A DNA stretch of 64,000 bases. Origin: Georgenia satyanarayanai. Its GTDB lineage: Bacteria; Actinomycetota; Actinomycetes; Actinomycetales; Actinomycetaceae. A program made the position numbers and the translations under genes. The DNA lies in NCBI RefSeq assembly GCF_900116375.1, contig NZ_UETB01000008.1:1-64000 (forward strand), written 5' to 3'. The notes under the pieces were generated by a model. That model was not told the DNA's origin, did no database searches, and saw only the letters and a list, made by a program, of their open reading frames with translations. Of this stretch, positions 44,272 to 64,000 are shown piece by piece; position 1 is the stretch's first letter; each line of letters opens with the position of its first letter.

Positions 44272-44589
44272 TCAGCCGCCGATGATGACCGTCGGGCAGC
44301 CGGGGCCTGGCGCGATCGGCGTGCCGTGCATCGACAGGTCGCCCAGGCGCGCGGCGGGGAAGTTGCCGATGAGGACGGTCATGCTGCCCATCGCGATCCC
44401 GTTGGGGGCGGGGGAGACGCACGCGATGCCGCCGGGCATCGAGTTCGCGACCGCCGCGGGCATCCCGCCGATGAGCACGGTGAGTACCGCCGCCGCCGGC
44501 GTGACCGGCCCGCCCACGTGCGGCTTGGGGCCGTCGAACAGCGGGCACAGCGCGCTGTCGCCCGCGCGGAGGGCCGGTCCTACGGGCAC
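44272..44589 (-). CDS. PAAR-domain spike-tip protein
   Basis: 105 aa. Gly/Pro-rich repeats VTPAAAVLTVLIGGMPAAVA and SMTVLIGNFPAARLGDLSMH, with the metal-binding His/Cys set in the family positions (ALCP, HVGG, IACV, MHGT, GCPT). PAAR proteins form the sharpened tip of the spike in contractile injection systems. Its gene lies 3 bp after the membrane-protein gene on the same strand, divergent from the rest of the eCIS locus. GTG start at 44589 with GAGGAC upstream. No toxin extension is fused. Confidence 0.9.
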   Translation of the reverse strand: MPVGPALRAGDSALCPLFDGPKPHVGGPVTPAAAVLTVLIGGMPAAVANSMPGGIACVSPAPNGIAMGSMTVLIGNFPAARLGDLSMHGTPIAPGPGCPTVIIGG

Positions 44590-44592
44590 CGC

Positions 44593-45909
44593 TCAGTCCT
44601 CGACGGGCTGGAGGAGGGTGCCGCCGTAGAGCACCGAGGTGTCGCAGGTGGTGGGCGGCGGGTCCTGGGCCGGAGGGACTCCGACCTCGTCGCAACGGAC
44701 CGTCATCACCAGCTCGGCGCCCTCTCCGGCGACGATCGGCTCCTGGAAGTGGTAGTCGACGCTGCGGAAGTTCTCCAGCGCGAGGTCCAGGAGCGTGCGT
44801 CCCTCCAGGGTCACCTCGACGCGCCCGAAGTCGCCCTGCGGGTTGCTCAGCACGAAGTCGGTGAGGCGGACCGTCCCCTCGGCGGGGACGACGAAGGACT
44901 CCGGTGACTGGGTGGCCCCCGGGGGCGTGTTGACCTGGAAGCGGTCGGCGACCGGGACGACGAGGTCGTCCAGGGTCGGGGAGCCCACCAGCTCGTTCGC
45001 CTCGACGGCGGCGGTGCCGGCCTCGGTCGCCGCGCCCTGCGCGGCCTGCGCGGCGTTGGACGCCTGCGCGGCCTCCTCGCCGGCCTGCTGCGCCGCGACG
45101 GCGGCCTCCTGGGCGGCCTCGTTCGCCGCGGCGACGTCCTCCTCGACGGCTCGCTCCGCCGTCGACACGATGGTGGGGCGCAGGACGAGGAACCACAGCG
45201 CGGCGAGGAGGAGCAGCAGGCCGAGGAGAGCGAGCAGCGCCTTGAGGAACCACGGCGGCAGGAGCGCCTCCTGCAGGTGGGTGCCCTCGAGCGTGACCGG
45301 CGTCGTCTCCTCGGTGTGGACGGTGAGGGAGAAGGGGTGCGTGACGGAGGCCCCGCGCCAGATGCGGGTACGCGGGCTCACCCGCAGGTCGGCGAAGGCC
45401 GCCTCTCCGGGCGGGACGGTGAGTGCCGGGGGTCGCGCCTCCACCTTGAGGGCGTCCTGGTCGGGGGCGTCCAGGCGGACGGTGACCGGGACGTTGCCCC
45501 GGTTGTCCACGGCCACGTGGTGCGTGGCCCCGCGCCGGCCGCGGGAGGTGCGGGGAACCAGCTCGGCGGTGGTCTCGAGGAACGGCAGGACCTCGACCAT
45601 TCCCTCGGGGACGACGGCCTGGTCGGGGTGCTCGGTGGGCACCACCCGCACGCCGAAGCTCAGCTGTCCCGCCGGCACGGACGCGGATCGGGGGGGCGCG
45701 AAGGAGATCGTCGCCGTCGTCTCCGTGCCGGGGAACAGGCCGGTGATCTCGGCGGGCTCCACGGAGGTCCACGCGCCCGGCACCCCGAGCACCTCGATCC
45801 GGTAGCCCTCGACGATCTCGCCGTCGTTGCGGATCTGGAGGGGCACCTGCTCCACGGCGCCGGCCGTCAGCTGGACGGAGGGGCGCTCCAGGCGCGCGGT
45901 CGTGGTCAT
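44593..45909 (-). CDS. eCIS-associated single-pass membrane protein with Ig-like N-terminal domains
   Basis: 438 aa. Residues 1 to about 205 hold two immunoglobulin-like beta domains (VPLQIRNDGEIVEGYRIEVL; VAVDNRGNVPVTVRLDAPDQ). One membrane helix follows (about 218-242; LKALLALLGLLLLLAALWFL). A long Ala/Glu coiled coil (EEDVAAANEAAQEAAVAAQQ) then leads to a C-terminal beta domain with cysteines. Absence of a signal peptide suggests the N-terminal Ig domains face the cytoplasm and the coiled coil is outside, or the reverse. Operonic with PAAR, it could dock the injection particle at the membrane, an inference. The ATG lies 7 nt after TACCGT, so it is probably leaderless. Confidence 0.75.
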   Translation of the reverse strand: MTTTARLERPSVQLTAGAVEQVPLQIRNDGEIVEGYRIEVLGVPGAWTSVEPAEITGLFPGTETTATISFAPPRSASVPAGQLSFGVRVVPTEHPDQAVVPEGMVEVLPFLETTAELVPRTSRGRRGATHHVAVDNRGNVPVTVRLDAPDQDALKVEARPPALTVPPGEAAFADLRVSPRTRIWRGASVTHPFSLTVHTEETTPVTLEGTHLQEALLPPWFLKALLALLGLLLLLAALWFLVLRPTIVSTAERAVEEDVAAANEAAQEAAVAAQQAGEEAAQASNAAQAAQGAATEAGTAAVEANELVGSPTLDDLVVPVADRFQVNTPPGATQSPESFVVPAEGTVRLTDFVLSNPQGDFGRVEVTLEGRTLLDLALENFRSVDYHFQEPIVAGEGAELVMTVRCDEVGVPPAQDPPPTTCDTSVLYGGTLLQPVED

Positions 45910-45916
45910 GGCCCAG

Positions 45917-46038
45917 ACGGTACGACCGGCGAAGACGCGTCCCTGAGGGCGAAACGGCGGCTCGCGGGGCAGCGGTTCTGCCCGTTGAGTCCGCGTTGAG
46001 TGCACGAAGAGTCCTCAGCGGGACAGTGTCCCGGACAC
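45917..46038. promoter_or_regulatory. Divergent eCIS control region with two overlapping palindromes
   Basis: The 161-bp gap between the membrane-protein and LuxR genes contains a minus-strand -10 TACCGT (45917-45922), two GTTGAGT direct repeats 11 bp apart (45984 and 45995), and two overlapping perfect palindromes, GGGACAGTGTCCC (46020-46032) and GTGTCCCGGACAC (46026-46038). The palindromes lie 33-51 bp before the LuxR start and are likely binding sites for a dimeric regulator, possibly the LuxR protein itself. Confidence 0.55.
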
Positions 46039-46070
46039 GGCGGCGCGGCCGTGCTGGGGTGGAGGAGGAC

Positions 46071-46700
46071 ATGATGATGGAACGAGTGCCGGTCTGGGTC
46101 AGTGCCCGGGACCCGATCTCGGAGGCCGGCGTGGTGAGCCAGCTGCGCCCACGCCCGGAGGTGCGGATCGTCGGACGCGACGAGGACGACGACGCGCTCG
46201 TCGCCGTCGTCATCAGCGACAGTCTCGACGGCGACACGCTGCGGATGCTCCGCGCGGTGCAGCGCAAGGGTTTCACCCGCACGGTGCTCGTCGTGGGGCA
46301 GCTCGAGGACAGCGACCTCGTCACCGCGATCGAGGCGGGCGTGGTCGGGCTGGTGCGACGCGGGGAGGCGACCTCGGACCGGCTCGTCGCCGTCATCCGT
46401 GCCGCCGCGACGGGGGACGGCACCGTCCCGCCGGACCTCCTGGGCCGTCTCATGGACCAGGTGGGCAAGCTGCAGCGGCAGGTCCTCGGGCCCCGTGGTC
46501 TCACCTTCACCGGACTGGCGTCCCGCGAGATCGAGGTGCTGCGTCTCATCGCGGACGGCTACGACACCGGTGAGGTCGCCCGGCAGCTGTCCTACTCCGA
46601 GCGCACCGTGAAGAACGTGCTGCACGACGTGACGAGCCGGCTGCAGCTGCGCAACCGGTCCCACGCCGTCGCCTACGCGCTGCGGGAGGGGCTCATCTGA
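46071..46700 (+). CDS. LuxR/NarL-type regulator with degenerate receiver domain
   Basis: 209 aa. The N-terminal ~125 residues have the outline of a NarL receiver, but the acidic pocket is lost: it begins VPVWVSARDPISEAGVVSQL instead of a DD pair, and the acceptor strand reads VAVVISDSLDGDTLRM. It is therefore probably not controlled by phosphorylation. The C-terminal HTH (about 145-209) is canonical: FTGLASREIEVLRLIADGYD, then YSERTVKNVLHDV. ATG 46071 (first of three in a row) follows GGAGGAGG. LuxR regulators accompany actinobacterial eCIS loci, so control of this cluster is likely. Confidence 0.85.
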   Translation: MMMERVPVWVSARDPISEAGVVSQLRPRPEVRIVGRDEDDDALVAVVISDSLDGDTLRMLRAVQRKGFTRTVLVVGQLEDSDLVTAIEAGVVGLVRRGEATSDRLVAVIRAAATGDGTVPPDLLGRLMDQVGKLQRQVLGPRGLTFTGLASREIEVLRLIADGYDTGEVARQLSYSERTVKNVLHDVTSRLQLRNRSHAVAYALREGLI

Positions 46701-46789
46701 GCGATCCACCGGTCTCGGTGCCGAATGTCAGACCCCCCTGGGACGATGTGACCAGCAGCACATCGAGGGTGTTGGAGGGGGTGGGGACC

Positions 46790-48313
46790 GTGGCCGAGGA
46801 GAACACCGGCGGCGTGGGTTCCGCTCCTGGGCGCGGGCCGGGCGCGGGTGTGGTGGCCGATGCGAGGAGCGAGCTGGACACGATCCTGGAGTGTCTGACG
46901 CGGCTGGAGGCGGTGGACTGGCACGAGATGGACGGCCACCGCCTCCACGAGGTCTTCGGGATCGGGGAGCAGCTGGAACGGCGGCTGGCCGGGGTGCGGG
47001 CGGCGATGCTGGCCACGATCGAGGCGAACGGGCTGTGGGCGCTGGACGGTCAGCGGACCTTCACCGCGTGGCTGCGTACCCGGACCGATGCCACCGCCCA
47101 GAGCGCCTCACGGCAGGTACGCCACGCCCGGGCCCTGCGTGACCTGCTGCCCCTGGCACGGGAGGCGCTGGCGCAGGGACGGATCAGCGAGGAGCACGTG
47201 GGCGTCCTGGTGCGCCGCGCGACCACCACCAACCGGTTGCGGGCCCAGCTGGCCGACGAGGACCTGGGTGAGGCGTTCCTGGTGGCCCAGGCCCAGCGGA
47301 TGGATGCCGGGTCCTTCGCCAGGCTCGTGGAGACCTGGGCCATCGCCACCGACCCCGAGGCCGCCGACCGCGCGTGGCGCGAGGACGGCACCAAGGAGCA
47401 GCTGACCCTGTCGCGCACCCTGGACGGCTACCACCTCAACGGGTGGCTGGACGAGCTGTCGGGCCAGAGCGTGGACACCGCACTACGCGCGCACATGGGC
47501 CGCAAGGCCAAGGGCGATGAGCGCACCCCGGCCCAGCGCCGGGCGGCGGCACTGACGTCGCTGGCGCGGCAGTCCCTGGACGCGGGTGAGCAGGGCAAGG
47601 GCGCCCGCATCCGCCCCCACCTCACCGTCACCGCCGACATCGAGACCCTGCGGGCGCTGGCCGCCGCGACCGGCTCCCCCAAGCCGCCGGTCACCGCCAG
47701 CGGCCGGGAGCACGAGCCGGGCGCCGAGCTGGGGTTCTGGGAAGAGGCCACCTTCAGTGCTCCCGGCGGTCCCCGCGACCCCGACCACACCACTGACGAT
47801 CCGTTCCGGCTCTCCCCGGAGGCGCAGGCCTGGATGGACACCTGGCAGCCGGGTGACACCCACGTCATCGCTGCCGCGATCGACCCCCGTGCGATGACCG
47901 GGGTGCAGCCGGCGACCATGGAGGACGGGACACCGGTCCCGCCGGCGATGCTCGCCCGCCTGGTGTGCGAGTCGAGCCTCTCCCGGGTGGTGTTCGGACC
48001 AGAGTCCACGGTGCTGGACGTGGGTAGGGAGCAGCGGATCTTCCCCGCCCACATGGTGCGGGCCATCATCGCCCGCGACAAGAAGTGCCAGGTCCCCGAC
48101 TGCGACGAACCACCCGGGGCCGGGGAGATCCACCACTCGATCCAGTGGTACCGCGACGGCGGGGCCACCTGTGTGGAGCACGGCATCCTGCTGTGCTGGC
48201 ACCACCACGACTGGGTCCACGCCTACGGCATCACCATCGTCAGAGCCGCCGGCCGCTGGTACTTCTACACCCGCCACGGCCAGCTCATCACCGCCAAGCA
48301 CGAACAGACCTAG
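46790..48313 (+). CDS. DUF222/HNH endonuclease domain protein (13E12 repeat family)
   Basis: 507 aa. The N-terminal and central helical part matches DUF222 (GQRTFTAWLRTRTDATAQSA; HARALRDLLPLAREALAQGR). The C terminus is an HNH nuclease: CQVPDCDEPPGAGEIHHSIQ and LLCWHHHDWVHAYGI, with the zinc-type Cys pair. The family is highly repeated in actinobacteria and behaves like a mobile or selfish gene; its function is unproven. GTG 46790 is chosen for the strong GGAGGGGG site 8 nt upstream; a GTG at 46718 is possible. It separates the eCIS regulator from the eCIS structural genes. A 7-bp inverted repeat (CGATGTG/CACATCG, 46744-46765) lies upstream. Confidence 0.85.
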   Translation: MAEENTGGVGSAPGRGPGAGVVADARSELDTILECLTRLEAVDWHEMDGHRLHEVFGIGEQLERRLAGVRAAMLATIEANGLWALDGQRTFTAWLRTRTDATAQSASRQVRHARALRDLLPLAREALAQGRISEEHVGVLVRRATTTNRLRAQLADEDLGEAFLVAQAQRMDAGSFARLVETWAIATDPEAADRAWREDGTKEQLTLSRTLDGYHLNGWLDELSGQSVDTALRAHMGRKAKGDERTPAQRRAAALTSLARQSLDAGEQGKGARIRPHLTVTADIETLRALAAATGSPKPPVTASGREHEPGAELGFWEEATFSAPGGPRDPDHTTDDPFRLSPEAQAWMDTWQPGDTHVIAAAIDPRAMTGVQPATMEDGTPVPPAMLARLVCESSLSRVVFGPESTVLDVGREQRIFPAHMVRAIIARDKKCQVPDCDEPPGAGEIHHSIQWYRDGGATCVEHGILLCWHHHDWVHAYGITIVRAAGRWYFYTRHGQLITAKHEQT

Positions 48314-48473: not shown

Positions 48474-51400
48474 GTGAGACGCGCAGTGGTGGCCTCGGTC
48501 GCCGGGTTCGGGGTGGTCGGGAGCCTGCTGGCGCCCAGCGCGCTACCGGGGGCCACGCCGGTCCAGGCTGTCAGTACGGCTCTCCCCGCGCCAGACCCGG
48601 CGCAACCACGCCTCTTGTTCGCCGGCATCCCAGTTGCGGACACACCCGACAGCGCGCCGGACGTGTGGGACGTCATCGCCGAGAGCGCCACGGACCAGCG
48701 CAAGCGGGTCGACTCCGCCCAGGACGGCAGCTACGGCTTCCGGTCGCCGTCCTACTCCCCGGATGGCTCACGAGCGGTGTTCAGCCGCGAGGTCGACGAC
48801 GAGGGCGCGGAGGGTCGGCAGCTGGTCACCGCGGACCTCACCGCGGGGCTCTCGGCCACGACCGAGACGCTCGACTCGGGATGGACCGACGGTACGCGCG
48901 ACGACGAGCCGGACTGGTCCGCGGGCGGCCTGATCGCATTCACCCGGGAGGTCGTCGACGAGTTGACCGAGGGCATCAGCACGCAGTTGCGCGTCGTCGA
49001 CGAGGGAAGCGGTGCCGTCACCGACCCTCTCGCCGTCGTCGGAACCACGCATGAGGAGGCCTTCGGCGACGCGGACGTGCACCGGCCGGTGTGGTCGCCC
49101 GACGGGACGCGGATCGCCTTCGAGGTCGTGGGTGGTGACGGTGACAACTTCGGTGAGCTGTGGGTCGTCGATCTCGAGGAGGAGCAGCTGCTCGGCCTCG
49201 TCGACGCCGACGGCGAGCAGGTCACCGGCCGGGGGCCGGCCTGGTCCCCGGACGGCTCTCAGCTCGCCTTTTCGGCGGGCGACGCCCAGGTCCTGGTCAC
49301 CCTCGTGGCAGGCGTTCTTGAGGAGCCGGACGCCGGCGCGATCGAGATCGATGCCGATACCGTCTACGTCCCGGCGGACAACGACCCGAGGGTCGGGCTG
49401 TGGGGCATCCGCGAACCCTCGTGGTCACCGGACGGGACGGAGATCGCCGTCGTCGCCGATGACTACGCCGGCAGCGCTGCCACGCACGGGGTGTACGCGA
49501 TCTCCGTCGCAGACGGGACCTACCGCACCATCAGCAGTGCGTCTCCCGCCGCAGGACCGTGGGAGGAGGTCTCGGGCCTTGACCACCAGCCTTTCAGCGA
49601 CCTCGCCGTCGCCATCGAGGCCTCCCGGACCGGCGGGATCGAGCTGGGGGAGCTCGTCGAGCTCACCGCCACCGTGACCAACCCCGGACCTTCCGCCGCC
49701 TGGGACGTGACCGTGCAGTACGAGCTCCCGGGGGCTCCGGACGGCATGGACACGGTCGTCGGCTGGCCGCCAGAGTGCGAGGGCGACGGCGGCGTCCTCA
49801 GCTGCGTCCTCGACGAGCCGCTCGCTGCGGGGGAGACGGCCGAGCTCACCGTCACCGTCGCCCTCCCCGAGCCCGGCACGTACCGCACCGACGTCCGCGT
49901 CGACGCCGTGACGCCCGACCCCGCCACCACCGACAACGTCGCCACCGTCGCGCTCGACGGGCCCTTCCCACCCGCGGTCGGCACCGAGCCGCGGCTCGCC
50001 TTCTCCTACCGCCACGGCACGGCGGACGACCGCCGCGCCGACATCGCCGACGTGCTCGCCGCCGACGCCTCGGACTTCCGCATCCTCGTCGACGAGCTCG
50101 TCGACGACGGCGCGAGCGTGGCGCGACCCGTCGAGGAGCACCCCTCCTACTCCCCGGACGGCCGCCGCCTCGTCCTCAGCAGCGAGCGCCACGAGCTCGA
50201 CGACGGCGAGCTGCCGGACGAGCCCACGCTCTTCGTCGCGGACGTCGGGCCGGACGGGGCCCGCGACCTCACGCTGCTCGCGGCCGCGTACGAGGAGGAC
50301 GCCTCCGCGACCTCGCCTGTCTGGTCGCCGGACGACACCCGGATCGCCTTCCTGCGCCACCGGGGCGAGGGCCGCACCCTGTCCGTCGTCGAGCTGGCGA
50401 CGGGAGCCGTGCAGGACTGGCCGGTACCGGCCGCAGACGTCGGGTGGTCCCCGGACGGCGAGCACCTGGTGATCGCGGACCCGGACACGCAGCCGGGACC
50501 CGAGCTGGCCGTCGTCGATGCCGACGACGGCACCGTCCACAGGATGGTCACCGAGGTGCCCGGGTGCACAGGGGCGCCAGAGACGTGTGTGGAGCCCGTC
50601 GTCGGCGAGGGTCCGGCCTGGTCGCCAGGCGGTGACCGCATCGCCTACACGGCACTGGCGGGCGACGACGTCGACGGCCTGTTCACCGTGACGATGGGGG
50701 AGCCGACGACGACGAGCTGGGGCGAGGTGGTCCACCTCGTCCCCCCACCCCGGCTCGTCTCCGAGCCCGACCCCGAGGACCACCCCCTGCTCCGGGAGCC
50801 GACGTGGGCGCTGGACGGCGGCTCGGTCACCGTCGTCGGCCAGGACGGGGATGGCCTCGGCAGCCTCCTGTCGGTCCCCGCCGAGGGCGGTCCCGCGACG
50901 CTCGTGCGCGAGCTTCCGGGCATCGCCCCGGACGTCGGGGACCCGGTCTACCAGCCGTGGGCCGACGTCGCCGTCGAGCTCACCGGCTCCGGCCCGGTGG
51001 ACGCCGGGCAGCCGGCCACGGTGACGGCGACGGTCACCAACCTCGGCCCGTCGCCCGCGTGGGACGTGGGTGTCACCGTCGAGGTCCCGGCCGTCGCCGC
51101 CGGTGATGCCGTGCTCGAGGGCTGGCCCGCCCAGTGCACGCCCAGCGCCGCGGGCCTGGAGTGCACCCTCCCCAACGTGCTCCCGGCCGGGCAGGCGGTC
51201 GGGCTGACGGTCGAGCTGAGGACCACCGCTCCCGGCGGGCACCCGGTCCGGGCCGCGGCGTCCTCGGCCTCCGTCGACCCCGTGCCCGGCAACGACGCCG
51301 CCGTCGTCACCCTCGAGGTGAGCGATCCTCCGCCACCGGTGCTCGAGCCCCACCTCGCGTTCACCCGCTGGGCCGACCGCCCGGGCGGGGACGACAGCCG

Positions 51401-54809: not shown

Positions 54810-54812
54810 GCC

Positions 54813-55493
54813 GTGATCCGTGAGATGGACGAGGCCCTGCGCGAGCTCGTACGCACCCACGCGCTGGACGGCTCCGACGTCGAGGTGGTCCTCGACGCGC
54901 CGACCACGGACTGGGCCGCGCGCCGCAACGCCCCCACCGTCAACCTCTACCTCTACGACCTGCGCGAGGACACCCGCTGGCGCGAGCGCGGCTGGGCGCC
55001 CCGCACGGGTGCCGACGGCACGGTGACGGGCCGGGTGCCCGCCCCCCGGCTGTTCAAGCTCTCCTACCTCGTCACCGCGTGGACGGCGCGGCCGGAGGAC
55101 GAGCACCGGCTGCTCGACGCGCTCCTCCACGCGCTCCTCGCGGTCGAGGTGCTGCCCGCCGAGCTGCTCAGCAGCGAGCTCGAGGGCGTCCGGGTGCCGC
55201 TGACCGTGGGCCTGCCCCCGCCGGAGGACCGCGGCTTCGCCGACGTCTGGTCCTCCCTCGGTGGCCAGCTCAAGCCCTCGATCGACGTCGTCCTCACCGC
55301 GCCCTTCAGCGCCGGCGCTGACGTCCCGGTCGGCCCGCCGGTGGCCGAGCCGGCCGTCGTGAACATCTCCGACCTGCGCGGCCCGGCCCAGGAGCGTGCC
55401 GGTGGGCGCCGCGCCCGTCCCGAGGAGCCCGGCACGCCGCCCGAGCCCTCCGCACCCGCCCGACGCGCACGCAAACCGAGGAAGCGCACGTGA
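54813..55493 (+). CDS. DUF4255 eCIS tail-completion protein (Pvc16-like)
   Basis: 226 aa. The DUF4255 core reads IREMDEALRELVRTHALDGS at the start, then NLYLYDLREDTRWRERGW and a PRLFKLSYLVTAWT strand. In Photorhabdus virulence cassettes the homologue (Pvc16) caps the tube-sheath end of the particle. The last ~45 residues are a basic, Pro-rich tail (RRARPEEPGTPPEPSAPARR). GTG 54813 begins 3 bp after the giant secreted protein gene; the end overlaps the AAA+ gene by 4 bp. Confidence 0.88.
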   Translation: MIREMDEALRELVRTHALDGSDVEVVLDAPTTDWAARRNAPTVNLYLYDLREDTRWRERGWAPRTGADGTVTGRVPAPRLFKLSYLVTAWTARPEDEHRLLDALLHALLAVEVLPAELLSSELEGVRVPLTVGLPPPEDRGFADVWSSLGGQLKPSIDVVLTAPFSAGADVPVGPPVAEPAVVNISDLRGPAQERAGGRRARPEEPGTPPEPSAPARRARKPRKRT

Positions 55494-57517
55494 TCGGCCA
55501 CCTCCTCGCCCGGCTCGGCGTCGTCGAGCAGCGGGTGCGCGACCTCGTCGCCGAGCGTCGCGCCACCGACCCGCAGCCCGACGACCCCTTCCGCGGGCTC
55601 TACTTCAGCGAGGAGATGGTCACCCGACTGCTCGAGTCGGGACCGCCCGTCCCTCGCCCGCCCACGGACCCGAGCGGGTTCGCCGCAGCGGAGGCCCTCG
55701 CCGACGCCGCCGAGGCGCGTGGGGAACGCGTGCGGCTGCGCGAGCTCAGCCGCCACTTCGGCCTCACGCCGCTCGACGAGGAGCTCCTGCTCGTCGCTCT
55801 CGCCGGGGACCTCGACGTCCGCTTCGAGGCGCTCTACGGCTACCTCAACGACGACGTCACGCGCCGCCGGCCCAGCGTCGAGGTGGCCCTGGCGCTGTGC
55901 GGGGTGCCGCTGGCCGCCGCCGAGGTCCGAGCCCGCCTCCTCCACGGCCCGCTGACGACGGCGCGGCTGCTCACCGTCGAGGACGGCGAGCGTGCCTTCG
56001 CCGGGCGCTCGCTGCGGGTGCCGGACCGCGTCGTCGGGCACCTCCTCGGTGACGACACGCCCGACCCCGCCGTTGCCCCCCTCCTGCGTGAGCTCCCCGA
56101 CGTCGCGTGGGGCGAGCCCGCGCCGCTCGCCCGCGCCCTGGAGGAGGGCACGTGCCTGGTCTACCTGCGCGAGCCGGCCACCGGGTCGGGCCGGGCCCTG
56201 GCGGTGCGGGCCCTCCACGGGAGCGGACGGGGCGCCGTCCACGTCGACCTCACGGTGCTCGCGGCCCAGCCCGAGCCGGTCGAGCTGACCCGGCTGGTGC
56301 TGCGCGAGGCCCGCCTGCGGGGCGCCGGGCTCGTCGTCGGGCCGGTCGAGACGCCCCCGGCGGGGGTGCTCGACGTCCTCACCGCCGGGGAGGCACCCGT
56401 GCTGCTCGTCGGGGACCGCAGCTGGGACCCGGCGTGGTCGGCGCAGGTGCCGCTCCTCGTCGAGGTGCCCGAGAGCACCGTCGGCGAGCGCAGCGCGCTG
56501 TGGCTGACCGAGCTCGCGGCCGACGGCGTGGGCCCGGACCAGGTGGCGGCCACCTCCCAGCTGCGGCTGCGTCCCGAGCAGGTCGTGCGCGCCGCCCAGG
56601 CCGCCCGCGTGCAGGCGCGCCTGGCCGGGGAGCGTGTCGTCGGGGTCGAGCACCTCCTCGCCGGCGCCCGCGCCGAGAACGGCACGGCCCTGGAGCGGCT
56701 GGCCCGCCGGGTGCGCCCCGCGGTGGGTTGGGCCGACCTCGTGCTGCCCGAGCCCGCCCTCACCGGCCTGCAGGAGATCGCGCTGCGGGCCCGGCACCGC
56801 GAGCAGGTCCTCGGTGACTGGCGGATGCGCCCCGGCGGCGCTCGCGGGCGCGGCGTCGTCGCCCTCTTCGCGGGCGACTCGGGCACCGGCAAGACGATGT
56901 CGGCGGAGGTCGTCGCCCAGGACCTGGGACTGGACCTGTACGTCGTCGACCTCGCGACCGTCGTCGACAAGTACGTGGGGGAGACGGAGAAGAACCTCGA
57001 GCGGATCTTCGCCGCCGCGCAGGGCGTCAACGCGGTCCTCCTCTTCGACGAGGCCGACGCCGTCTTCGGCAAACGCTCGGAGGTCAAGGACGCGCACGAC
57101 CGCTACGCCAACATCGAGAGCGCCTACCTCCTCCAGCGGCTGGAGAGCTTCGACGGCCTCGCCGTGCTCGCCACCAACCTGCGCGCCAACATCGACGACG
57201 CCTTCACCCGCCGGCTCGACGTCGTCGTCGACTTCCCCGTGCCCGACGTCGTCCAGCGGCGGCGGCTGTGGGACCGCTGCCTGGGCACGACGCTGCCCCG
57301 CGCCGCGGACCTCGACCTCGGCTTCTGCGCCGACACCTTCGAGCTGGCCGGGGGCGCCATCCGGTCCGCCGCCGTCACCGCCGCGTACTTCGCGGCCGAC
57401 GACGGCGGCACGGTGACGATGGGCCACGTCGTCACCGCGGTGCAGCGCGAGTACCGCAAGCTCGGGCGGCTCACCGTGCCCAGCGAGTTCGGCGGGTACT
57501 GGTCCCTCGTGCGGTGA
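55490..57517 (+). CDS. eCIS AAA+ ATPase (Pvc15-like)
   Basis: 675 aa. An N-terminal helical region (about 1-250) and a degenerate first ATPase-like part precede a full AAA+ module: Walker A GDSGTGKT (residues 462-469), Walker B VLLFDEADAVFGKRSE, and a sensor-type LAVLATNLRANIDDAF with the arginine-finger region TRRLDVVVDFP. Such ATPases are a hallmark of extracellular contractile injection systems and are thought to remodel or assemble the particle or load cargo. GTG 55490 overlaps DUF4255 by 4 bp. The N-terminal part lacks a usable Walker A. Confidence 0.92.
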   Translation: MIGHLLARLGVVEQRVRDLVAERRATDPQPDDPFRGLYFSEEMVTRLLESGPPVPRPPTDPSGFAAAEALADAAEARGERVRLRELSRHFGLTPLDEELLLVALAGDLDVRFEALYGYLNDDVTRRRPSVEVALALCGVPLAAAEVRARLLHGPLTTARLLTVEDGERAFAGRSLRVPDRVVGHLLGDDTPDPAVAPLLRELPDVAWGEPAPLARALEEGTCLVYLREPATGSGRALAVRALHGSGRGAVHVDLTVLAAQPEPVELTRLVLREARLRGAGLVVGPVETPPAGVLDVLTAGEAPVLLVGDRSWDPAWSAQVPLLVEVPESTVGERSALWLTELAADGVGPDQVAATSQLRLRPEQVVRAAQAARVQARLAGERVVGVEHLLAGARAENGTALERLARRVRPAVGWADLVLPEPALTGLQEIALRARHREQVLGDWRMRPGGARGRGVVALFAGDSGTGKTMSAEVVAQDLGLDLYVVDLATVVDKYVGETEKNLERIFAAAQGVNAVLLFDEADAVFGKRSEVKDAHDRYANIESAYLLQRLESFDGLAVLATNLRANIDDAFTRRLDVVVDFPVPDVVQRRRLWDRCLGTTLPRAADLDLGFCADTFELAGGAIRSAAVTAAYFAADDGGTVTMGHVVTAVQREYRKLGRLTVPSEFGGYWSLVR

Positions 57518-57622
57518 GCCGCCCCTTCGGGCACGTGCTGCTTCCCCTTGGGACGGACCGCGGACCCTTCAGCGGCGCGGCACCCGCTGGGACCGTGGTT
57601 CCCAGTCGACGAAGGGGTGACG

Positions 57623-58303
57623 ATGCGCGAGCACGACCAGCGGGACCCGGCCGGGGGACGGTCGACGCGGACCTCCCGGCCGGCCGCACCAGAGCCGCAC
57701 CTGCTGCGCGCCGCGACCGCCCACCGCCCGGACGTCCTCGGGGCGGAGGGCCTGCTCGAGCTGCAGCGGCTGGTGGGCAACGAGGCGACGGCTGAGGCGC
57801 TCGCGCCCGAACGGTCCCCGGTCCTCGACGTCGTCGGGTCCGGCGGCGGGCAGGCGCTTGAGCCCGAGGTCCGGCAGGACATGGAGGCCCGCCTCGGCGC
57901 CGACTTCACCGACGTCCGCGTCCACACCGGCGGTGCCGCGAGCGACTCGGCCCGCGCCGTCGGCGCCCACGCCTACACGGTGGGCTCCGACGTCGTCTTC
58001 CAGCGCTACGACCCCTCGTCGACGACGGGACGCACCATGCTCGCCCACGAGCTCACCCACGTGGTCCAGCAGCGCAGCGGGCCCGTGGACGGGACGGACA
58101 CCGGCACCGGTGTGCGGGTCTCCGACCCCGGTGACCGCTTCGAGCGGGAGGCGGCCGCCACCGCCGAGACCGCCATGTCGGCTCCGGCACAGGCGCCGGC
58201 ACAGGCGCCGCTCCAGCGGCAGGAGGACGAGGAGGAGCTGCAGGGCGCGTTCGTCCAGCGGGACGCGGCCGAGGAGGAGGAGCTGGGCGCCGATCCGGGC
58301 TGA
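57623..58303 (+). CDS. DUF4157 eCIS protein with HExxH motif
   Basis: 226 aa. The DUF4157 core is GADFTDVRVHTGGAASDSAR, followed by AHAYTVGSDVVFQ and the zinc-metallopeptidase-like H142-E-L-T-H146 in LAHELTHVVQQRSG. DUF4157 is enriched in eCIS loci, often as the N-terminal part of toxins. Here no toxin domain is fused; the C terminus is an acidic tail with repeated QR motifs (APLQRQEDEEELQGAFVQRD). It may be a stand-alone peptidase, a cargo adaptor or an orphan leader. The ATG at 57623 follows GAAGGGG; a GTG at 57617 is too close to that site. Confidence 0.88.
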   Translation: MREHDQRDPAGGRSTRTSRPAAPEPHLLRAATAHRPDVLGAEGLLELQRLVGNEATAEALAPERSPVLDVVGSGGGQALEPEVRQDMEARLGADFTDVRVHTGGAASDSARAVGAHAYTVGSDVVFQRYDPSSTTGRTMLAHELTHVVQQRSGPVDGTDTGTGVRVSDPGDRFEREAAATAETAMSAPAQAPAQAPLQRQEDEEELQGAFVQRDAAEEEELGADPG

Positions 58304-58433: not shown

Positions 58434-59984
58434 ATGCCGACCTATCTGTCACCAGGTGTGTACGTCGAGGAGGTCGAGGCAGGGTCTCGACCGATCGAGG
58501 GCGTAGGCACCGCTGTCGCGGCCTTTGTCGGGCTCGCGGCCAAGGGACCCGTCAACGAGCCCACGCTCGTGTCCAACTGGACCCAGTTCGCCGAGACCTT
58601 CGGCGACTTCGTCCCTGGCTCCTACCTCGCCCACAGCGTCTACGGCTACTTCCTCAACGGCGGTGGCAACTGCTACGTCGTGCGGGTCGGAGCCGACGGC
58701 GGTCGCAACGGGCAGTCCGGCGCCGGCCGCAAGCAGGTCACGGGGAAGCCCGAGGCCCTCGTCGGTGGCTACCGGGTGGTGGCCAAGTCGGCCGGGACGA
58801 AGAAGATCACCGTCTCGGTCGCCGCGCCGGAGGACGACAAGGCGCCGGACGACCGCTTCCGCCTCGTCGTCAACGTCGACGGCAAGCCGGCCGAGACCTT
58901 CGACGGCCTCACCACGAAGAAGGGCGGGGACAACCTCGCCACCAAGGTGAGTGCCGAGTCCAAGGTCGTGCTCATCGAGGAGGTCGCCCAGGGCAGTGCC
59001 CTGATGAAGCCGGACAAGGGGGAGACCGAGCTCGTCGCCCCCGCCCCGGAGCCCGCACCGGTCACGACCGAGCGGCTGGGCGCCGACGACTACGTCGGGG
59101 ACGCCGCCGAGCGCACCGGCTTCGCCGGCCTCGAGGCGGTCGACGAGGTGACGATGCTCGCGGTGCCCGACCTCATGGCGGCCTACGAGCAGGGCGCGAT
59201 CGACCTGGAGACGGTCCAGGCGGTGCAGCTGGCGATGATCGCCCACTGCGAGCTCATGGGCGACCGCCTGGCGATCCTCGACCCGCCGCCCAACCTCTCC
59301 CCGCAGCAGATCAAGGACTGGCGGGTGGACGGCGCCGGCTACGACTCGAAGTACGCGGCCCTCTACTGGCCGTACATCAAGGTCTTCGACCCGGCGACGG
59401 GCAGCAACCGCTTCGTCCCGCCGTCGGGGCACGTCGCGGGCGTGTGGGCGCGCAACGACGACTCGCGCGGAGTCCACAAGGCGCCGGCCAACGAGGTCAT
59501 CCGCGGCGCGATCGCGCTGCAGACCAACCTCACCAAGGCCGAGCACGACCTCCTCAACCCCGTGGGGATCAACTGCGTGCGCAGCTTCCCCGGCCGGGGC
59601 ATCCGGATCTGGGGTGCGCGCACCCTGTCGAGCGACCCCGCGTGGCGCTACCTCAACGTGCGGCGGCTGTTCAACTACCTCGAGGAGTCCATCCTCATGG
59701 GCACGCAGTGGGTGGTCTTCGAGCCCAACGACGACGCCCTGTGGTCGCGCATCGAGCGGACGATCTCGGCGTTCCTCGTCAACGAGTGGCGCAAGGGAGC
59801 CCTGTTCGGGCTTACGCCCGACGAGGCGTTCTACGTCAAGTGCGACCGCGAGACGAACCCGGCAGAGGGGATCGACGCCGGCCAGGTCACCTGCCAGATC
59901 GGGGTCGCCCCCGTGAAGCCGGCCGAGTTCGTCATCTTCCAGCTCGCGCAGTTCTCCGGCGGCACGAGCCTCGTCTCCGAGTGA
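58434..59984 (+). CDS. Contractile tail sheath protein
   Basis: 516 aa. It starts with the classical sheath N terminus PTYLSPGVYVEEVEAGSRPI and ends with the conserved C-terminal domain NVRRLFNYLEESILMGTQWV then FEPNDDALWSRIERTISAFL and FVIFQLAQFSGG. The middle (about 95-210) is a Lys/Glu/Ala-rich insertion domain that probably decorates the outer surface. The sheath contracts to drive the inner tube through a membrane. ATG 58434 has GGAGGA upstream. A 130-bp gap before it separates it from DUF4157 and may contain a promoter, but no clear hexamers are visible. Only one sheath gene is in view. Confidence 0.96.
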   Translation: MPTYLSPGVYVEEVEAGSRPIEGVGTAVAAFVGLAAKGPVNEPTLVSNWTQFAETFGDFVPGSYLAHSVYGYFLNGGGNCYVVRVGADGGRNGQSGAGRKQVTGKPEALVGGYRVVAKSAGTKKITVSVAAPEDDKAPDDRFRLVVNVDGKPAETFDGLTTKKGGDNLATKVSAESKVVLIEEVAQGSALMKPDKGETELVAPAPEPAPVTTERLGADDYVGDAAERTGFAGLEAVDEVTMLAVPDLMAAYEQGAIDLETVQAVQLAMIAHCELMGDRLAILDPPPNLSPQQIKDWRVDGAGYDSKYAALYWPYIKVFDPATGSNRFVPPSGHVAGVWARNDDSRGVHKAPANEVIRGAIALQTNLTKAEHDLLNPVGINCVRSFPGRGIRIWGARTLSSDPAWRYLNVRRLFNYLEESILMGTQWVVFEPNDDALWSRIERTISAFLVNEWRKGALFGLTPDEAFYVKCDRETNPAEGIDAGQVTCQIGVAPVKPAEFVIFQLAQFSGGTSLVSE

Positions 59985-60017: not shown

Positions 60018-60467
60018 ATGCCTCTCCCAGACGCCATGGACCTCGCCCCGGCGTACTCGTTCAGCGTGACGATCGACGGGGTGCAGGTGCCCTACGTGAT
60101 GGAGGTCAGCGGGCTGAAGTCGGAGGTCGACAAGATCTCCTACCAGCACCAGGACCAGAGCGGGAAGTTCATCACCCGCCAGATGATGGGCCGGCAGAAG
60201 CCGGGGGAGTTCAAGGTCAAGCGCGGCCTGACCGACTCCAAGACCATCACCGACTGGCTCAAGAAGATCATGCAGGGCGACCTCGCCGGCGCCCGCAAGA
60301 CGGCCGCGGTGAAGATCATGTCCTCCGACGGCACGCCGGTGACGACGCTGAACTACCGCAACTGCTGGATCAAGGACGTCGAGGTCGGGGGGACGCTGAA
60401 GGCGGGGTCCACCGAGCCGATGACCGAGACGTTCACGGTCTGCTGGGACGAGATGGAGTTCGCCTGA
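60018..60467 (+). CDS. Inner tube protein (Hcp/gp19-like)
   Basis: 149 aa, the length typical of eCIS and T4-gp19-type tube proteins. It starts LPDAMDLAPAYSFSVTIDGV and contains the core EVSGLKSEVDKISYQHQDQ, FKVKRGLTDSKTITDWLKK and the last strands GGTLKAGSTEPMTETFTVCW. Hexamers stack to form the channel inside the sheath. ATG 60018 follows AAGGAAG. It ends overlapping the next start by 1 bp. eCIS loci often carry two or three tube paralogues; further copies may lie beyond the window. Confidence 0.95.
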   Translation: MPLPDAMDLAPAYSFSVTIDGVQVPYVMEVSGLKSEVDKISYQHQDQSGKFITRQMMGRQKPGEFKVKRGLTDSKTITDWLKKIMQGDLAGARKTAAVKIMSSDGTPVTTLNYRNCWIKDVEVGGTLKAGSTEPMTETFTVCWDEMEFA

Positions 60468-60913
60468 TGCGACGAGGATCCCCCGGCCTCGTGCTGCCCG
60501 AGGCGGCCGTCGAGGAGACGGCCGCCCCGGGTGGGCGCGAGACGCTGCGGACCGAGTTCGACTTCGAGCTGCCCCGCGGCTACCTCGACGCCGACGGCGT
60601 GCTCCACCGGTCCGGCACCATGCGCCTGGCCACGGCCCGCGACGAGCTGCTGCCGCTGTACGACGCGCGGGTGCAGGAGAACGCCGCCTACACCACCGTC
60701 GTCCTCCTCGGGCGGGTCATCACCCGGCTCGGCACGCTCACCACGGTGGACGGGTCGGTCGTGGAGAACATGTTCGCCTCCGACGTCGCCTTCCTCCAGG
60801 ACCTGTACCGCCGGGTCAACGCCGAGGGGCACACCCGCGCCGCGGTGACCTGCCCCGAGTGCTCCCACCGCTTCACCCTCGACCTCGCCGGTGGCCGCCT
60901 GGGGGAATCGTGA
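60467..60913 (+). CDS. eCIS tail-assembly-like protein with CxxC...H motif
   Basis: 148 aa. The core ETLRTEFDFELPRGYLDADG, then HRSGTMRLATARDELLPLYD and TVVLLGRVITRLGTLTTVD, resembles phage tail-assembly chaperone proteins. The end carries a half zinc ribbon, TCPECSHRFTLDL. It is expected at this position after the tube gene in eCIS loci and probably helps tube or tape-measure assembly, by analogy only. ATG 60467 shares one base with the tube stop. The end overlaps the next gene by 4 bp. Confidence 0.75.
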   Translation: MRRGSPGLVLPEAAVEETAAPGGRETLRTEFDFELPRGYLDADGVLHRSGTMRLATARDELLPLYDARVQENAAYTTVVLLGRVITRLGTLTTVDGSVVENMFASDVAFLQDLYRRVNAEGHTRAAVTCPECSHRFTLDLAGGRLGES

Positions 60914-61068
60914 CGTACGCGCCCGACAGCATCTACGAGGAGGTCGCGTACGTCGCCTACCACTTCCACTGGCCGCTCGACGACATCCTCGACCTCGAGC
61001 ACGCCCAGCGGCTGCGGTACGTCCGGGAGATCGCGCAGATCAACACGCGACTGTCCGAGGAGCGGTGA
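60910..61068 (+). CDS. Small eCIS protein (DUF6760-like)
   Basis: 52 aa: TYAPDSIYEEVAYVAYHFHW, then PLDDILDLEHAQRLRYVREI. It matches the short proteins that follow the tail-assembly gene in many eCIS and phage tail operons (DUF6760 type, also like the C-terminal frame-shifted product of phage tail-assembly genes). GTG 60910 overlaps the preceding stop by 4 bp, so the two may act as a pair. The next gene starts 3 bp downstream. Confidence 0.8.
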   Translation: MTYAPDSIYEEVAYVAYHFHWPLDDILDLEHAQRLRYVREIAQINTRLSEER

Positions 61069-61071
61069 GCG

Positions 61072-64000
61072 ATGCGGTGGCCCTGGGAGCGGCGCGCGGC
61101 GGAGCCCGCCGGCGCTGAGGCGGCGGCCCGGGCCGCCGGGACCGGGGTGGCTCCCGCCCAGCCGGCCCCGAGCCCGAGCGGCTGGGCCTTCCACCCGCCG
61201 CTGCAACGGACGATCACGCCCCTGCCGAGCGTCCACGAGGGCACCGCGGCGGGCTGGACGGCCACCGGGCGCGACATCGGCCTCACCGGGCGGATGTCGC
61301 ACCTGGTCAGTGCGTCGTCGTGGTCAGGGGTGGTGGACGGCGACGGCGGGGGCCTCGTCCTCGCCGCACGCGCCACGTCCGACGGGCTGCCGTCCGCCGG
61401 ACCGACGGCGGCACCGACGGGCGGTACCGCCGGTGGTTCCCTGACGCGCGCGGCGACGGCGCCGGGCGTGCCCGTGGTGCAATACGCGCCGGCGCCCGGA
61501 CCGCTGCGGCCACCGCCACCGGCGCAGAGGCCGCAGGTTCAGCGGCGGGAGGAGACGCACGTCGACGCGGACGTCACCGAGGAGCCGCCGGCCGACTGGA
61601 CCAACCCCGAAGTGGCGCTCGGTGACGGCACGGTCGTCGAGATCCCGCTCAGCGCCGGCCGCCCGCTCGACGCGCCGCCGGTCCAGCGCAGCACCGGGGA
61701 GACGGCTCCACCCGCCGCCGGCGGCACCCGGCCGCCGGTGCAGCGCAGCGGCGACCGGCGCCTGGGCCTCGGCGCCCCGCTCAGCAGCACACCTGCCCTG
61801 CCCGTGCGGCACCCGGCCGGCGACGCCTCGCGTGCCGGACGGGCCGGCGGGACCGATGCCGGCCCCGGCCCTGCTGCCTCTGCCGGTGACGGTGGCGCAC
61901 CTCCCGACGCCTCGTCGCCCGGAGGGGGCGCTGGGGCCGCGTCCTCCGGCGAGGCCGCCGCACGTCCTGGCGCCGCGGTACCCGGCGGCGACGCTCTGCG
62001 GTCGCACGCGGTGCAGCGGGCCGCGGAGCCGCCCGGGGCCGCGGCCGCGCCGAGTGACGACGGGGAGACCGGTCCGGCGGCGGCGACCGGCGCGGTGCGC
62101 GAACCGTCCCCGCCTTCCACCGCGGGAGCCGCGCCGCACGACGGCGCGACGACGGACACCGTCGGCACCCTCGGTGCGGCGGAGCAGCCTCCCGGTGCAG
62201 GCGCACCGGCCGGGGGGAACGGTGGCAGCACCGTGCCCCCGCCCGTCAGCAGCGCGGCTGTGCCGCCGCACGGGACTGGACGCGCCGCACCGTCGCTCCC
62301 CGTGAGCCGCTCCGCCGCACTCCCGCCGCCGACGGTGAGCCGGACGGCCGCACCGGCGGCTCGGTCCGGTGCTGACAGCTTCCCGACGCCACACGCGGCG
62401 CCACCCGGTCCGTCGGGCCCGACCGCGCCGCTGCCGACCGTCGGTCGTGCCGCGCAGGCGCCAGCGCCACCACAGTCGTCTGGCGCGACCACCGCGCCGG
62501 CACCCACGGTGGGTCGTGAGCCGCCACTGCCCTCCGGTGCGTCCGGCACCACGGGAGCGAGCACGACGGTCCCCCTCCAGCGCGCCGACGGAGACGGGTC
62601 CGGGACGACCGGACCGGGGTCGTCGCCGCAGACGCCGCTCGAGGGCACGGCAGCGGCACCTGGCAGCACCGCCCCGCCACCGGACGACGCCCCGTCGAGC
62701 GACCTGCCGGACGAGACACCGACCGCCTCGCCGCCGGACGACGCCCCGTCGAGCGACCTGCCGGACGAGACACCGACCGCTGCACCCGTGGACGACGCCC
62801 GCTCGACCGGTCTGCTGGGCGCGACGCCGACCGCCGCGGTGAGGGACGGTGGCAGCGCAGCGCCGGGCCCTGACGCCGTTGCCCAGCGCGTCGAGGCGAG
62901 CATGCCCGTCGTGCCGGTCCCGCGCGGCCGGGACGCCGACGCCCCACCGCAGCCCGTCGCCGCCACCCGCGCCGACACCCAGGAGGACGTCGCTCCGGCC
63001 GACCAGCGCACCGTCGCTCCGGCCGAGCCGAGCGCGGCCGCGGCCGCCGCGGACCACCCGGCGGCCGGGGTGGGTGTGGCGCGCGCGGACGTCGGCCAAC
63101 TCTCGCCGGACCAGGCGGAGTCCGGACGGGCGCTGCACCCGACTCTCGCGGAGCCGACCGGGCAGGCGAGGGGTGCTGAGCGCTCGACGACCACGAGCAG
63201 TGGCGACCTCGCGCCGTCCGGGCAGCCCGGCCACCACGGGAGGCCACCGGGACCTCTCGTCGCCCGGGTGGCCGGCGACGGTGGGGCCCTCCCGCTGCCG
63301 TGGCGCACCCCGGCGCGTCCGACGGTGGACACGCGGGCCGACGACGGTTCCGTTGCGCTCGCGGCGCAGCGATCGACCACCCCCCGCTCACTCGGTGACC
63401 GCACCGGCCCGGTGCTCCCAGGAGCTCCGCCGACCACTGCGAGCGCTCCCGGGGCGCGGCCGGCCCTCGGCGGCGCGACGGCCGGTTCCCTGCCGTCGGG
63501 CGACGTGCCGGCGCTCTCCCTCTCGGGCCCGCCCCTGACGAGCCGGCCCGGCAGCGCGTCGCCCCCTGCCCGGACCGTCGACGCCGTGGCCAGGCCCGTC
63601 GCCCTCCCGGCCGTGGCTCGATCCGCCGCCGGCCCGGCGGTGACCGGCCCCTCGGACGACTCACCGGTTGTCCGCCCCGTCGACGACGCACCGACCTCTC
63701 GGTCCGTCGACCCGCTGTCGGTGGGCGGGCCCGTGGGAACGCTGTCGGGGGACGGGCCGATCGGTGCTCCGGTCACGGGCGAGGCTGCCGACACGCTCAT
63801 AGACCGAGCCGTCGGACCGCTGTCGGCGAGCCGGGCCGCCGGGAGGCCGTTCGCGGGCCAGGGCGCCGGGACACCGTTCGTGAGTCGCGCCGTTGCGACG
63901 CCGTTCGCGGAGCGGACCGCTGGGACGCCGTTCGCGGAGCGGGCCGTCGGGACGCCGTTCGCGGAGCGGGCCGTCGGGACGCCGTTCGCGGAGCGGGCCG
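61072..64000 (+). CDS. Giant Pro/Ala/Thr-rich eCIS-linked protein, 3' end outside the window
   Basis: At least 976 aa, open to the last base. It begins RWPWERRAAEPAGAEAAARA and has a short ordered stretch (about 38-95; GWAFHPPLQRTITPLPSVHE then DIGLTGRMSHLVS). Almost all the rest is low complexity, with recurring QR motifs (PPVQRS twice, HAVQRA, VPLQRAD, LAAQRST) like those in the DUF4157 protein's tail. Two repeat blocks lie inside it. No signal peptide, membrane helix or catalytic motif is seen. ATG 61072 is 3 bp after the DUF6760-like gene, so it is in the same operon. The function is unknown. Confidence 0.78.
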   Translation, partial: MRWPWERRAAEPAGAEAAARAAGTGVAPAQPAPSPSGWAFHPPLQRTITPLPSVHEGTAAGWTATGRDIGLTGRMSHLVSASSWSGVVDGDGGGLVLAARATSDGLPSAGPTAAPTGGTAGGSLTRAATAPGVPVVQYAPAPGPLRPPPPAQRPQVQRREETHVDADVTEEPPADWTNPEVALGDGTVVEIPLSAGRPLDAPPVQRSTGETAPPAAGGTRPPVQRSGDRRLGLGAPLSSTPALPVRHPAGDASRAGRAGGTDAGPGPAASAGDGGAPPDASSPGGGAGAASSGEAAARPGAAVPGGDALRSHAVQRAAEPPGAAAAPSDDGETGPAAATGAVREPSPPSTAGAAPHDGATTDTVGTLGAAEQPPGAGAPAGGNGGSTVPPPVSSAAVPPHGTGRAAPSLPVSRSAALPPPTVSRTAAPAARSGADSFPTPHAAPPGPSGPTAPLPTVGRAAQAPAPPQSSGATTAPAPTVGREPPLPSGASGTTGASTTVPLQRADGDGSGTTGPGSSPQTPLEGTAAAPGSTAPPPDDAPSSDLPDETPTASPPDDAPSSDLPDETPTAAPVDDARSTGLLGATPTAAVRDGGSAAPGPDAVAQRVEASMPVVPVPRGRDADAPPQPVAATRADTQEDVAPADQRTVAPAEPSAAAAAADHPAAGVGVARADVGQLSPDQAESGRALHPTLAEPTGQARGAERSTTTSSGDLAPSGQPGHHGRPPGPLVARVAGDGGALPLPWRTPARPTVDTRADDGSVALAAQRSTTPRSLGDRTGPVLPGAPPTTASAPGARPALGGATAGSLPSGDVPALSLSGPPLTSRPGSASPPARTVDAVARPVALPAVARSAAGPAVTGPSDDSPVVRPVDDAPTSRSVDPLSVGGPVGTLSGDGPIGAPVTGEAADTLIDRAVGPLSASRAAGRPFAGQGAGTPFVSRAVATPFAERTAGTPFAERAVGTPFAERAVGTPFAERA
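62677..62838 (+). repeat. 54-bp coding tandem repeat, three copies
   Basis: Units begin at 62677, 62731 and 62785. The first two are almost identical and encode PPDDAPSSDLPDETPTA; the third is diverged (PVDDARSTGLLGATPTA). The repeat adds acidic, flexible linker sequence to the giant eCIS-linked protein. Confidence 0.85.
63784..64000 (+). repeat. 27-bp coding tandem repeat running off the window
   Basis: Eight 9-codon units start at 63784, 63811, 63838, 63865, 63892, 63919, 63946 and 63973. The consensus peptide is VGTPFAERA; the last three units are nearly identical, the first five are progressively diverged (AADTLIDRA, VGPLSASRA, AGRPFAGQG, AGTPFVSRA, VATPFAERT). The array continues past position 64000, with the youngest copies at the window edge. 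Confidence 0.9.

Follow-up and report, generated by a model that had tools for sequence, protein, structure and literature searches.

A predicted complete type IId contractile injection system in Georgenia satyanarayanai, with a divergent PAAR and candidate-effector operon, a secreted modular protein and a possible disordered tape measure

The first 64,000 nucleotides of contig NZ_UETB01000008.1 of Georgenia satyanarayanai (hereafter the window) were analysed together with the remainder of the contig, which has 163,087 bp in a genome of 3.9 Mb; the nearest named relatives are G. satyanarayanai and Oceanitalea stevensii. Positions 44,272-72,295 of the contig, extending beyond the window, hold a gene cluster for a contractile injection system (CIS), which by its sequence is a complete type IId system, like that of Streptomyces coelicolor, and not an unknown one. 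A 438-aa membrane protein and a PAAR protein are encoded on the minus strand, and the remaining cluster genes lie on the plus strand. The features that begin in the window are the following:

44272-44589, minus strand: PAAR protein of the spike tip, encoded second in the divergent operon (Pfam PAAR_motif, E 5.3e-16)
44593-45909, minus strand: membrane protein, candidate effector of the Sco4256-4258 type (alignments, hydropathy)
46059-46700, plus strand: LuxR-type regulator with a degenerate receiver (GerE, E 1.4e-12)
46790-48313, plus strand: DUF222/HNH protein (DUF222, E 1.7e-28)
48474-54809, plus strand: secreted modular protein of 2,111 aa (Pfam PD40, E 3.8e-60; DUF11, E 3.9e-56)
54813-55493, plus strand: cap or terminator, Pvc16_N/DUF4255 (Cis16) (Pfam, E 1e-40; best PDB match 9gts, E 2.2e-53)
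55490-57517, plus strand: AAA+ ATPase (AAA, E 1.5e-21; WHD, E 1.2e-23)
57617-58303, plus strand: small eCIS_core (DUF4157) protein with VQR/LQR motifs (Pfam, E 7.9e-31)
58434-59984, plus strand: contractile sheath (Cis2) (Pfam; best PDB match 8bky, E 4e-218; ATG start with GGAGG upstream)
60018-60467, plus strand: inner tube (Cis1a) (Phage_T4_gp19, E 1e-25)
60467-60913, plus strand: tail-assembly-chaperone-like protein of 148 aa with a possible zinc ribbon (PHROG 508)
60910-61068, plus strand: conserved 52-aa protein, its start overlapping the preceding stop (71-100% identity in genomes G002, G004, G007 and G072)
61072-64000 and on to contig position 64713, plus strand: giant disordered protein (DIS) of 1,213 aa (position, C-terminal helix, VQR motifs, length)

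Past the window the plus-strand order continues with a second tube gene, a hub of the CIS_tube/LysM type, a VgrG-like spike, gp25, Baseplate_J, Tail_P2_I and a protein with zinc-ribbon, transmembrane (TM) and discoidin parts that ends at 72295, and a SARP regulator faces the end of the cluster. A first-pass annotation made from the window had named an extracellular CIS (eCIS) locus, which is borne out, with the AAA+ ATPase and the Pvc16_N terminator adjoining the sheath, tube and baseplate genes, and the genes that it listed (sheath, tube, AAA+, DUF4255, DUF4157 and PAAR) are all present and open. It was equally right about the divergent PAAR/membrane-protein operon (44272-45909), the LuxR regulator, whose receiver gives no Response_reg match at E <= 0.01, and the two giant proteins, the second of which reaches its stop outside the window. 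Among the parts that it proposed to look for past 64000, the baseplate and spike genes are found and a recognised tape measure is not, as the cluster proteins match no tape-measure family in Pfam, PHROG and NCBIfam scans. Neither the gene table nor Pfam scans covering 20 proteins up to 75 kb show a conventional tail fibre gene, and scanning the divergent region for promoters gave no hit.

All cluster open reading frames (ORFs) are open and have coding-type codon use. The core structural proteins are 85-100% identical to those of G002 and G004, and against G002 the identity is 96% for the sheath, 74% for the secreted protein, 67% (BLAST) for the last protein of the cluster and 51% for DIS. The shared genes keep one order in two further genomes of the genus, one of the family and three of the order, and GerE and BTAD regulators are known neighbours of eCIS loci (PMC8213781).

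When searched against the PDB, the sheath finds the S. coelicolor CIS at E 4e-218, the next different entry, 9ezm, at E 7.9e-116, Pvc2 at E 2.3e-50 and Afp2-4 at E 2.8e-43 or weaker (Afp3, E 2.8e-43). Baseplate_J best matches 9gtp (E 3.2e-229) and the cap 9gts, and 8BKY/8BL4 and 9GTP/9GTS are PDB entries named in PMC10066040 and PMC12237407. The locus is assigned to type IId because sheath, cap and Baseplate_J all have their best matches among S. coelicolor CIS structures. The S. coelicolor system, CIS-Sc (SCO4242-4260, type IId), thus has the same sheath, cap and baseplate by sequence, and by position, as read in the S. coelicolor-like clade, it shares the effector family, the chaperone-like gene, the DIS-type ORF and CisA. 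The window differs in having a divergent effector gene paired with PAAR and a secreted modular protein between regulator and cap, whereas the S. coelicolor-type loci that were read have neither PAAR nor the secreted protein; for S. coelicolor itself, the absence of PAAR is stated in PMC10066040. The SLP of S. lividans with Sle1/Sle2 (PMC13277306) also has a small DUF4157 protein immediately upstream of the sheath, and the eCIS_core protein of the window is Sle2-like in place and domain, but no Sle1-type gene lies in the 130-bp gap between it and the sheath. With AFP/PVC type I eCIS the general tail-like plan is shared, but the sequence matches are weaker and the window has no match to a fibre or tape-measure family when scanned against Pfam, PHROG and NCBIfam.

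The reach of the accessory set was followed in 80 named loci, which come from one scan of genome contigs with 155 qualifying and were chosen by effector, four of them being without a called effector gene and some stretches being short. The regulator is directly divergent from the effector in 65/80, a gene of the secreted-protein family lies in the stretch in 66/80, and PAAR directly follows the effector gene in 21/80. These 21 are all the loci of Georgenia, Oceanitalea, Occultella, Cellulomonas, Cellulosimicrobium, Miniimonas and a Promicromonosporaceae metagenome-assembled genome, against 0/59 of the others, and in Streptomyces relatives having PAAR the gene sits between VgrG and gp25; the PAAR-effector operon therefore looks like an innovation of the Georgenia/Cellulomonas branch. 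A further sample took in 4 + 35 of 55 candidate places and left out G314, G367 and G277, which were strong, and 13 weaker ones.

The sheath tree, with 38 rows of 42 loci (G467, G368, G476 and G331, with no full sheath call, were left out), joins the S. coelicolor-like loci (7 labelled, 8 rows) in one clade with support of 100/100. This clade is sister (98/93) to six rows inside a grade of secreted-protein carriers that numbers 19 rows in total, some deeper forks being weaker (90/89). The S. coelicolor sheath matches that of G204, a member of the S. coelicolor-like clade, with 1,049 bits, and that of the window with 729 bits. A prediction was fixed beforehand for 10 + 10 unread Streptomyces loci, picked for long contigs among sheath hits: PAAR and the secreted protein were expected at 66-69% sheath identity to G204, and neither at 79-89%. 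With the stretches completed, PAAR was found in 10/10 of the former clusters and 0/10 of the latter, and the secreted protein likewise in 10/10 vs 0/10 of the clusters. Two architectures can thus be told apart within type IId, namely the one of the window, with divergent effector, regulator, secreted protein and PAAR, and the nested S. coelicolor type. The nesting within the carrier grade suggests that the secreted protein and PAAR were lost on the way to the S. coelicolor type. The much-studied S. coelicolor machine seems to be a reduced form, as the branches closest to it in the tree have both the PAAR tip and the secreted modular protein. The window system is probably an ancestral-type IId CIS with the full gene set and an unusual PAAR-effector operon. 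The first-pass view that the accessory set is unusual holds in that the genes are ordered otherwise than in the S. coelicolor type, but the set is mostly conserved among relatives.

The 438-aa membrane protein, studied in alignments of first 11 (A1) and then 45 sequences (A3), has one TM helix near residue 225 (hydropathy), an Ala-rich coil, a C-terminal domain with a LENFRxxDxH motif and, by eye and in agreement with the published description, an Ig-like N-terminal half. The same family lies between the AAA and sheath genes, in one or two called copies, in 17/17 S. coelicolor-type loci having the region (7 + 10), which is where PMC10066040 places the effectors Sco4256-4258, with one TM segment, similar N-termini and different C-termini; their triple deletion leaves ~85% of tube lumens empty in the same report. 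An agreeing layout is also described in PMC10020575. SCO4256 is labelled 'possible hydrolytic protein' in PMC2000904, and among the 20 plasmid homologues listed one is annotated 'hydrolytic protein' and 12 'hydrolase'; the effector profile found nothing below E 0.04 in the PDB, and its matches all fall within the coil or TM part. Judged by layout and position against the published descriptions, the divergent protein is a candidate effector of the Sco4256-4258 type, which the earlier statement that no free toxin domain is in view had missed.

The last gene of the cluster, after Tail_P2_I, encodes two zinc-ribbon elements, a linker, a TM segment near residue 368 and a C-terminal part of 161 aa, with a match to NCBIfam NADase_discoid (E 5.4e-18). 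Among 42 loci, 23 gave a member in which a clear TM segment is followed by 154-165 aa, 17 had no candidate and 2 no TM segment. This layout agrees with that given for CisA in PMC12237407, with a disordered cytosolic part, zinc ribbons, a TM segment and an outer domain of ~160 aa, and the protein is CisA-like as far as the described layout goes. The HNH gene that had been remarked on in the middle of the locus is indeed there, but it is incidental to the cluster: three other near-full-length copies occur in the genome (90, 83 and 62% identity), which marks it as one of a dispersed family, and it is present at this spot in four Georgenia-like cases (the window, G002, G004, L064) and absent in G007, G072, G079 and G209.

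The secreted protein shows by eye a Sec-type signal peptide, four propeller + DUF11 modules and a conserved C-terminal domain ending in PPDFLTRG, and it is the sole match to itself in its genome. Called relatives outside the genus range from 547 to 1,560 aa (fragments excluded). Among seven that were scanned, PD40 was recognised in four, DUF11 in five, VWA and HYR in one and nothing in two, so the N-terminal modules vary while a C-terminal domain of ~100 aa is shared: the final 115 aa of the window protein match those of G079, G209 and G323 (Streptomyces) at E 4e-14 to 4e-25, and the remainder does so no better than E 0.02. The tail pattern is present in 68/85 called relatives, several misses being contig-end cuts or miscalls and others looser variants. 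The protein matches no phage-fibre family, and in the literature on WD40, propeller, TolB or PD40 with CIS, as far as its text was available, no description of it was found. L073 (Cellulomonas chitinilytica) has two tandem genes of this family (1,125 and 1,147 aa), which would allow outer modules to be swapped.

The cluster is likely to encode a complete Streptomyces-kind type IId CIS that assembles in the cytoplasm, docks in a CisA-like manner at the cell's own membrane and fires the effector paired with PAAR. The particle would consist of the Pvc16_N cap, sheath, tube, tube initiator, hub, VgrG spike with PAAR tip and gp25/Baseplate_J/Tail_P2_I wedges, with no fibre gene. The CisA-like protein would hold it at the membrane, the small DUF4157 protein would link cargo to the tube initiator, and the cargo fired would be the membrane-active effector of the Sco4256 type, whose gene is paired with that of the PAAR tip; the secreted modular protein may work beyond the membrane, where it could serve as a surface partner for the spike with its PAAR tip. 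The S. coelicolor and S. lividans papers supply, by analogy, the assembly in the cytoplasm, the dependence of firing on CisA, the loading of effectors and the contact of DUF4157 protein and initiator, and the functional pairing of PAAR and effector, like the role of the secreted protein, we infer. Some points weigh against this account. Georgenia is not known to be mycelial, and the published role lies in mycelial development; and the links to Sco4256 and CisA were drawn from described layout and position. The full set in Georgenia in turn questions the tie of that role to mycelial development. The relatives of Sco4256 in PMC10020575 come, bar one, from filamentous genera.

A true extracellular injector, whose particles act on other cells and for which the secreted propeller/DUF11 protein serves as a detached receptor-binding, fibre-like part, is an unlikely alternative to this cytoplasmic CIS. 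Variable N-terminal modules on a constant C-terminal domain and the PAAR tip would suit it, and PMC12923769 reports many fibre genes in actinobacterial eCIS, but the Sec-type signal seen by eye and the lack of a phage-fibre family match in the secreted protein speak against it, as do the want of a fibre gene after the wedge genes (gene table, Pfam scans) and the nearest solved relatives, which are cytoplasmic machines (PMC10066040). The undescribed eCIS subtype that the first-pass annotation had proposed, defined by the accessory set, is more doubtful still. It can point to a gene order unlike that of S. coelicolor and to the 10/10 vs 0/10 split of PAAR and the secreted protein, and it is true that the set characterises a separate architecture inside type IId. 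Sheath, cap and baseplate nevertheless place the locus in that type, and since the S. coelicolor type nests within the carrier grade, what the set represents is the broader form of a type already known. A decaying or silent cluster, which the HNH gene between the regulator and the secreted-protein gene might suggest, is highly improbable in view of the open frames, the coding-type codon use and the close identity of the core proteins to G002 and G004.

The main value of the locus lies in the overlooked secreted protein and in the giant disordered protein, a testable candidate for the tape measure that papers call absent. The tape measure gene is reported as absent from Streptomyces clusters in PMC12237407, PMC10066040 and PMC10286715, and uniform particle length is reported in PMC12237407 and PMC10066040. 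In 53/62 actinobacterial loci the chaperone-like/52-aa genes are separated from the second tube gene by a long, mostly Pro/Ala-rich ORF with an RERxG-type end helix, the reading frame having been chosen by the helix ending. The nine misses are G174, with a variant ending; G290, G425 and G272, which stop before the second tube; G467, without a chaperone-like call; and G476, G193, G331 and G362, in which the ORF was not seen. When the longest ORF is taken instead, the ending is found in 33/35 ORFs above 150 aa vs 23/903 called proteins, some of which are DIS fragments. A DNA search with the DIS ORF in its own genome returned nothing beyond the ORF itself, its internal repeats and short matches.

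In phages, the tape measure gene comes after the tail assembly chaperone genes. DIS likewise follows a chaperone-like gene, with the 52-aa gene between, and stands beside the initiator and hub genes, the match of the 148-aa protein to PHROG 508 (tail assembly chaperone) being modest: it is found for 6/6 members of alignment A2, with a best E of 2.6e-5 and 0.0076 for the window member. The chaperone link rests on this profile, as tblastn against named phages gave no relative of the chaperone-like gene; nor did it give one of the 52-aa gene, whose product, which we take to be DUF6760, has no PHROG or NCBIfam match. The Pro/Ala-rich composition of DIS, unlike that of helical tape measures, and its lack of a tape-measure family match in Pfam, PHROG and NCBIfam argue against a tape measure.

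The type IId CIS of Roseiflexus and Deinococcota (PMC12998442) share the tube, the chaperone-like gene, the second tube and a giant ORF with a similar terminal helix. Their giant ORF differs in place, following the second tube gene in 13/15 Chloroflexota loci where it was found (it precedes it in G572 and G574) and on the Deinococcus plasmids, unlike in the window, and a stand-alone helix gene often lies in front of it. A profile of the C-terminal helix, built from 53 actinobacterial C-termini and searched over 2,313 ORFs, aligns to within <=12 residues of the C-terminus in 11/15 Chloroflexota and 5/5 Deinococcus giant ORFs, only five and one of which, respectively, reach E <= 0.01. Homology of the giant ORFs across phyla would rest on this helix. 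A similar helix is encoded by a stand-alone gene of 51-91 aa before the second tube in 11/23 loci (E <= 0.01 in three); Chloroflexota examples of 51-58 aa between the chaperone-like and second tube genes are L248:10724-10879 and L254:11338-11502, and others lie, on the reverse complement, at L255 11339-11494 and L247 10640-10816.

Published particle lengths are 365 nm for D. aquatilis and 217 nm for R. castenholzii (PMC12998442). The measured species (R. castenholzii, C. chliarophilus, D. aquatilis, S. coelicolor and S. lividans) are represented in the comparison by relatives. The S. coelicolor-type DIS has a mean of 1,202 aa (coefficient of variation 0.083, 17 loci) and was set against 230-268 nm, from which, with the two published lengths, ~1,640-1,920 aa was predicted in advance for Deinococcus and ~970-1,150 aa for Roseiflexus. 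The Deinococcus giant ORFs have 1,831, 1,770, 1,506 and 1,973 aa (4/5 plasmids, likeliest starts; mean 1,770), 2/4 being in the expected range, and those of the genus Roseiflexus have 975, 909 and 872 aa, with 1/3 in range. D. grandis was excluded from the count because its tube and giant ORF share one continuous frame; at L236:15675-19454 on its plasmid the tube gene is in frame with the giant-ORF end, by a real deletion or a sequence error. The lengths correspond to ~0.21 (0.19-0.24) nm per residue in Deinococcus, 0.19-0.22 in the S. coelicolor type and 0.22-0.25 in Roseiflexus; if the lengths from negative stain are used for S. coelicolor and S. lividans, ~295-300 nm (PMC10020575, PMC13277306), the S. 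coelicolor-type value rises to ~0.25. The rank order thus fits the particle lengths, for three lineages and stand-in relatives. Across species the protein comes in short (538-692 aa), middle (~1,020 aa) and long (1,506-1,973 aa) versions. An indel-compensation test in DIS gave no support for selection on length, the median ratios of net change to random walk being 1.78, 0.90 and 1.61 in three clades vs 0.67 expected; by eye, DIS length seems less variable than the CisA linker, in part because DIS is longer.

The motif [VLI]QR occurs 275 times in 35 DIS proteins vs 9.8 expected from shuffles (28-fold) and 68 times in 25 eCIS_core proteins of the same loci vs 3.6 (19-fold), with at most 5.1-fold enrichment in other labelled families. 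Over 19 loci, the per-locus VQR values of DIS and eCIS_core are correlated (Spearman 0.51, p 0.024, without correction for relatedness). The wider VxR motif is enriched in some branches only; raw VQR counts, not compared with shuffles, are high in some Chloroflexota (17 in G791, 11 in G977). Since the eCIS_core protein Sle2 is reported to contact the tube initiator (PMC13277306), the VQR motif may dock there.

That DIS is a cargo carrier or scaffold gathering DUF4157 proteins through the shared VQR motifs, and not a tape measure, has close to an even chance. The motif enrichment in both proteins agrees with it, as do the outcome of the indel test, a DIS of just 183 aa in G130 and the weak eCIS_core match in the Deinococcus giant ORF; counting genes, DIS would correspond to SCO4249, and the unknown proteins that the available text of PMC10020575 names from the particle proteome do not include it. 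Against a carrier, some branches lack VQR enrichment, the Deinococcus ORF among them, yet the C-terminal helix and the place beside the initiator and hub genes persist, and the giant-protein lengths track the few particle lengths available. We tentatively entertain, at somewhat less than even chances, that type IId CIS are not without a tape measure: a giant, largely disordered protein would be fixed to the hub by its conserved C-terminal helix, its body would extend along the tube at ~0.2 nm per residue, and many branches would have in it repeated VQR docking motifs shared with the DUF4157 cargo adaptor. Such a disordered, motif-bearing tape measure would, if true, be a new kind of molecular ruler.

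Two observations on DIS length may be added. The short DIS of G130 (L164/L165) keeps the C-terminal ending and offers a natural test case for length control. In the window genome, contig positions 63831-64172 (L009:3831-4172) hold ~12.7 copies of a 27-bp tandem repeat that encodes GTPFAERAV-like units within DIS, an easy route to length change.

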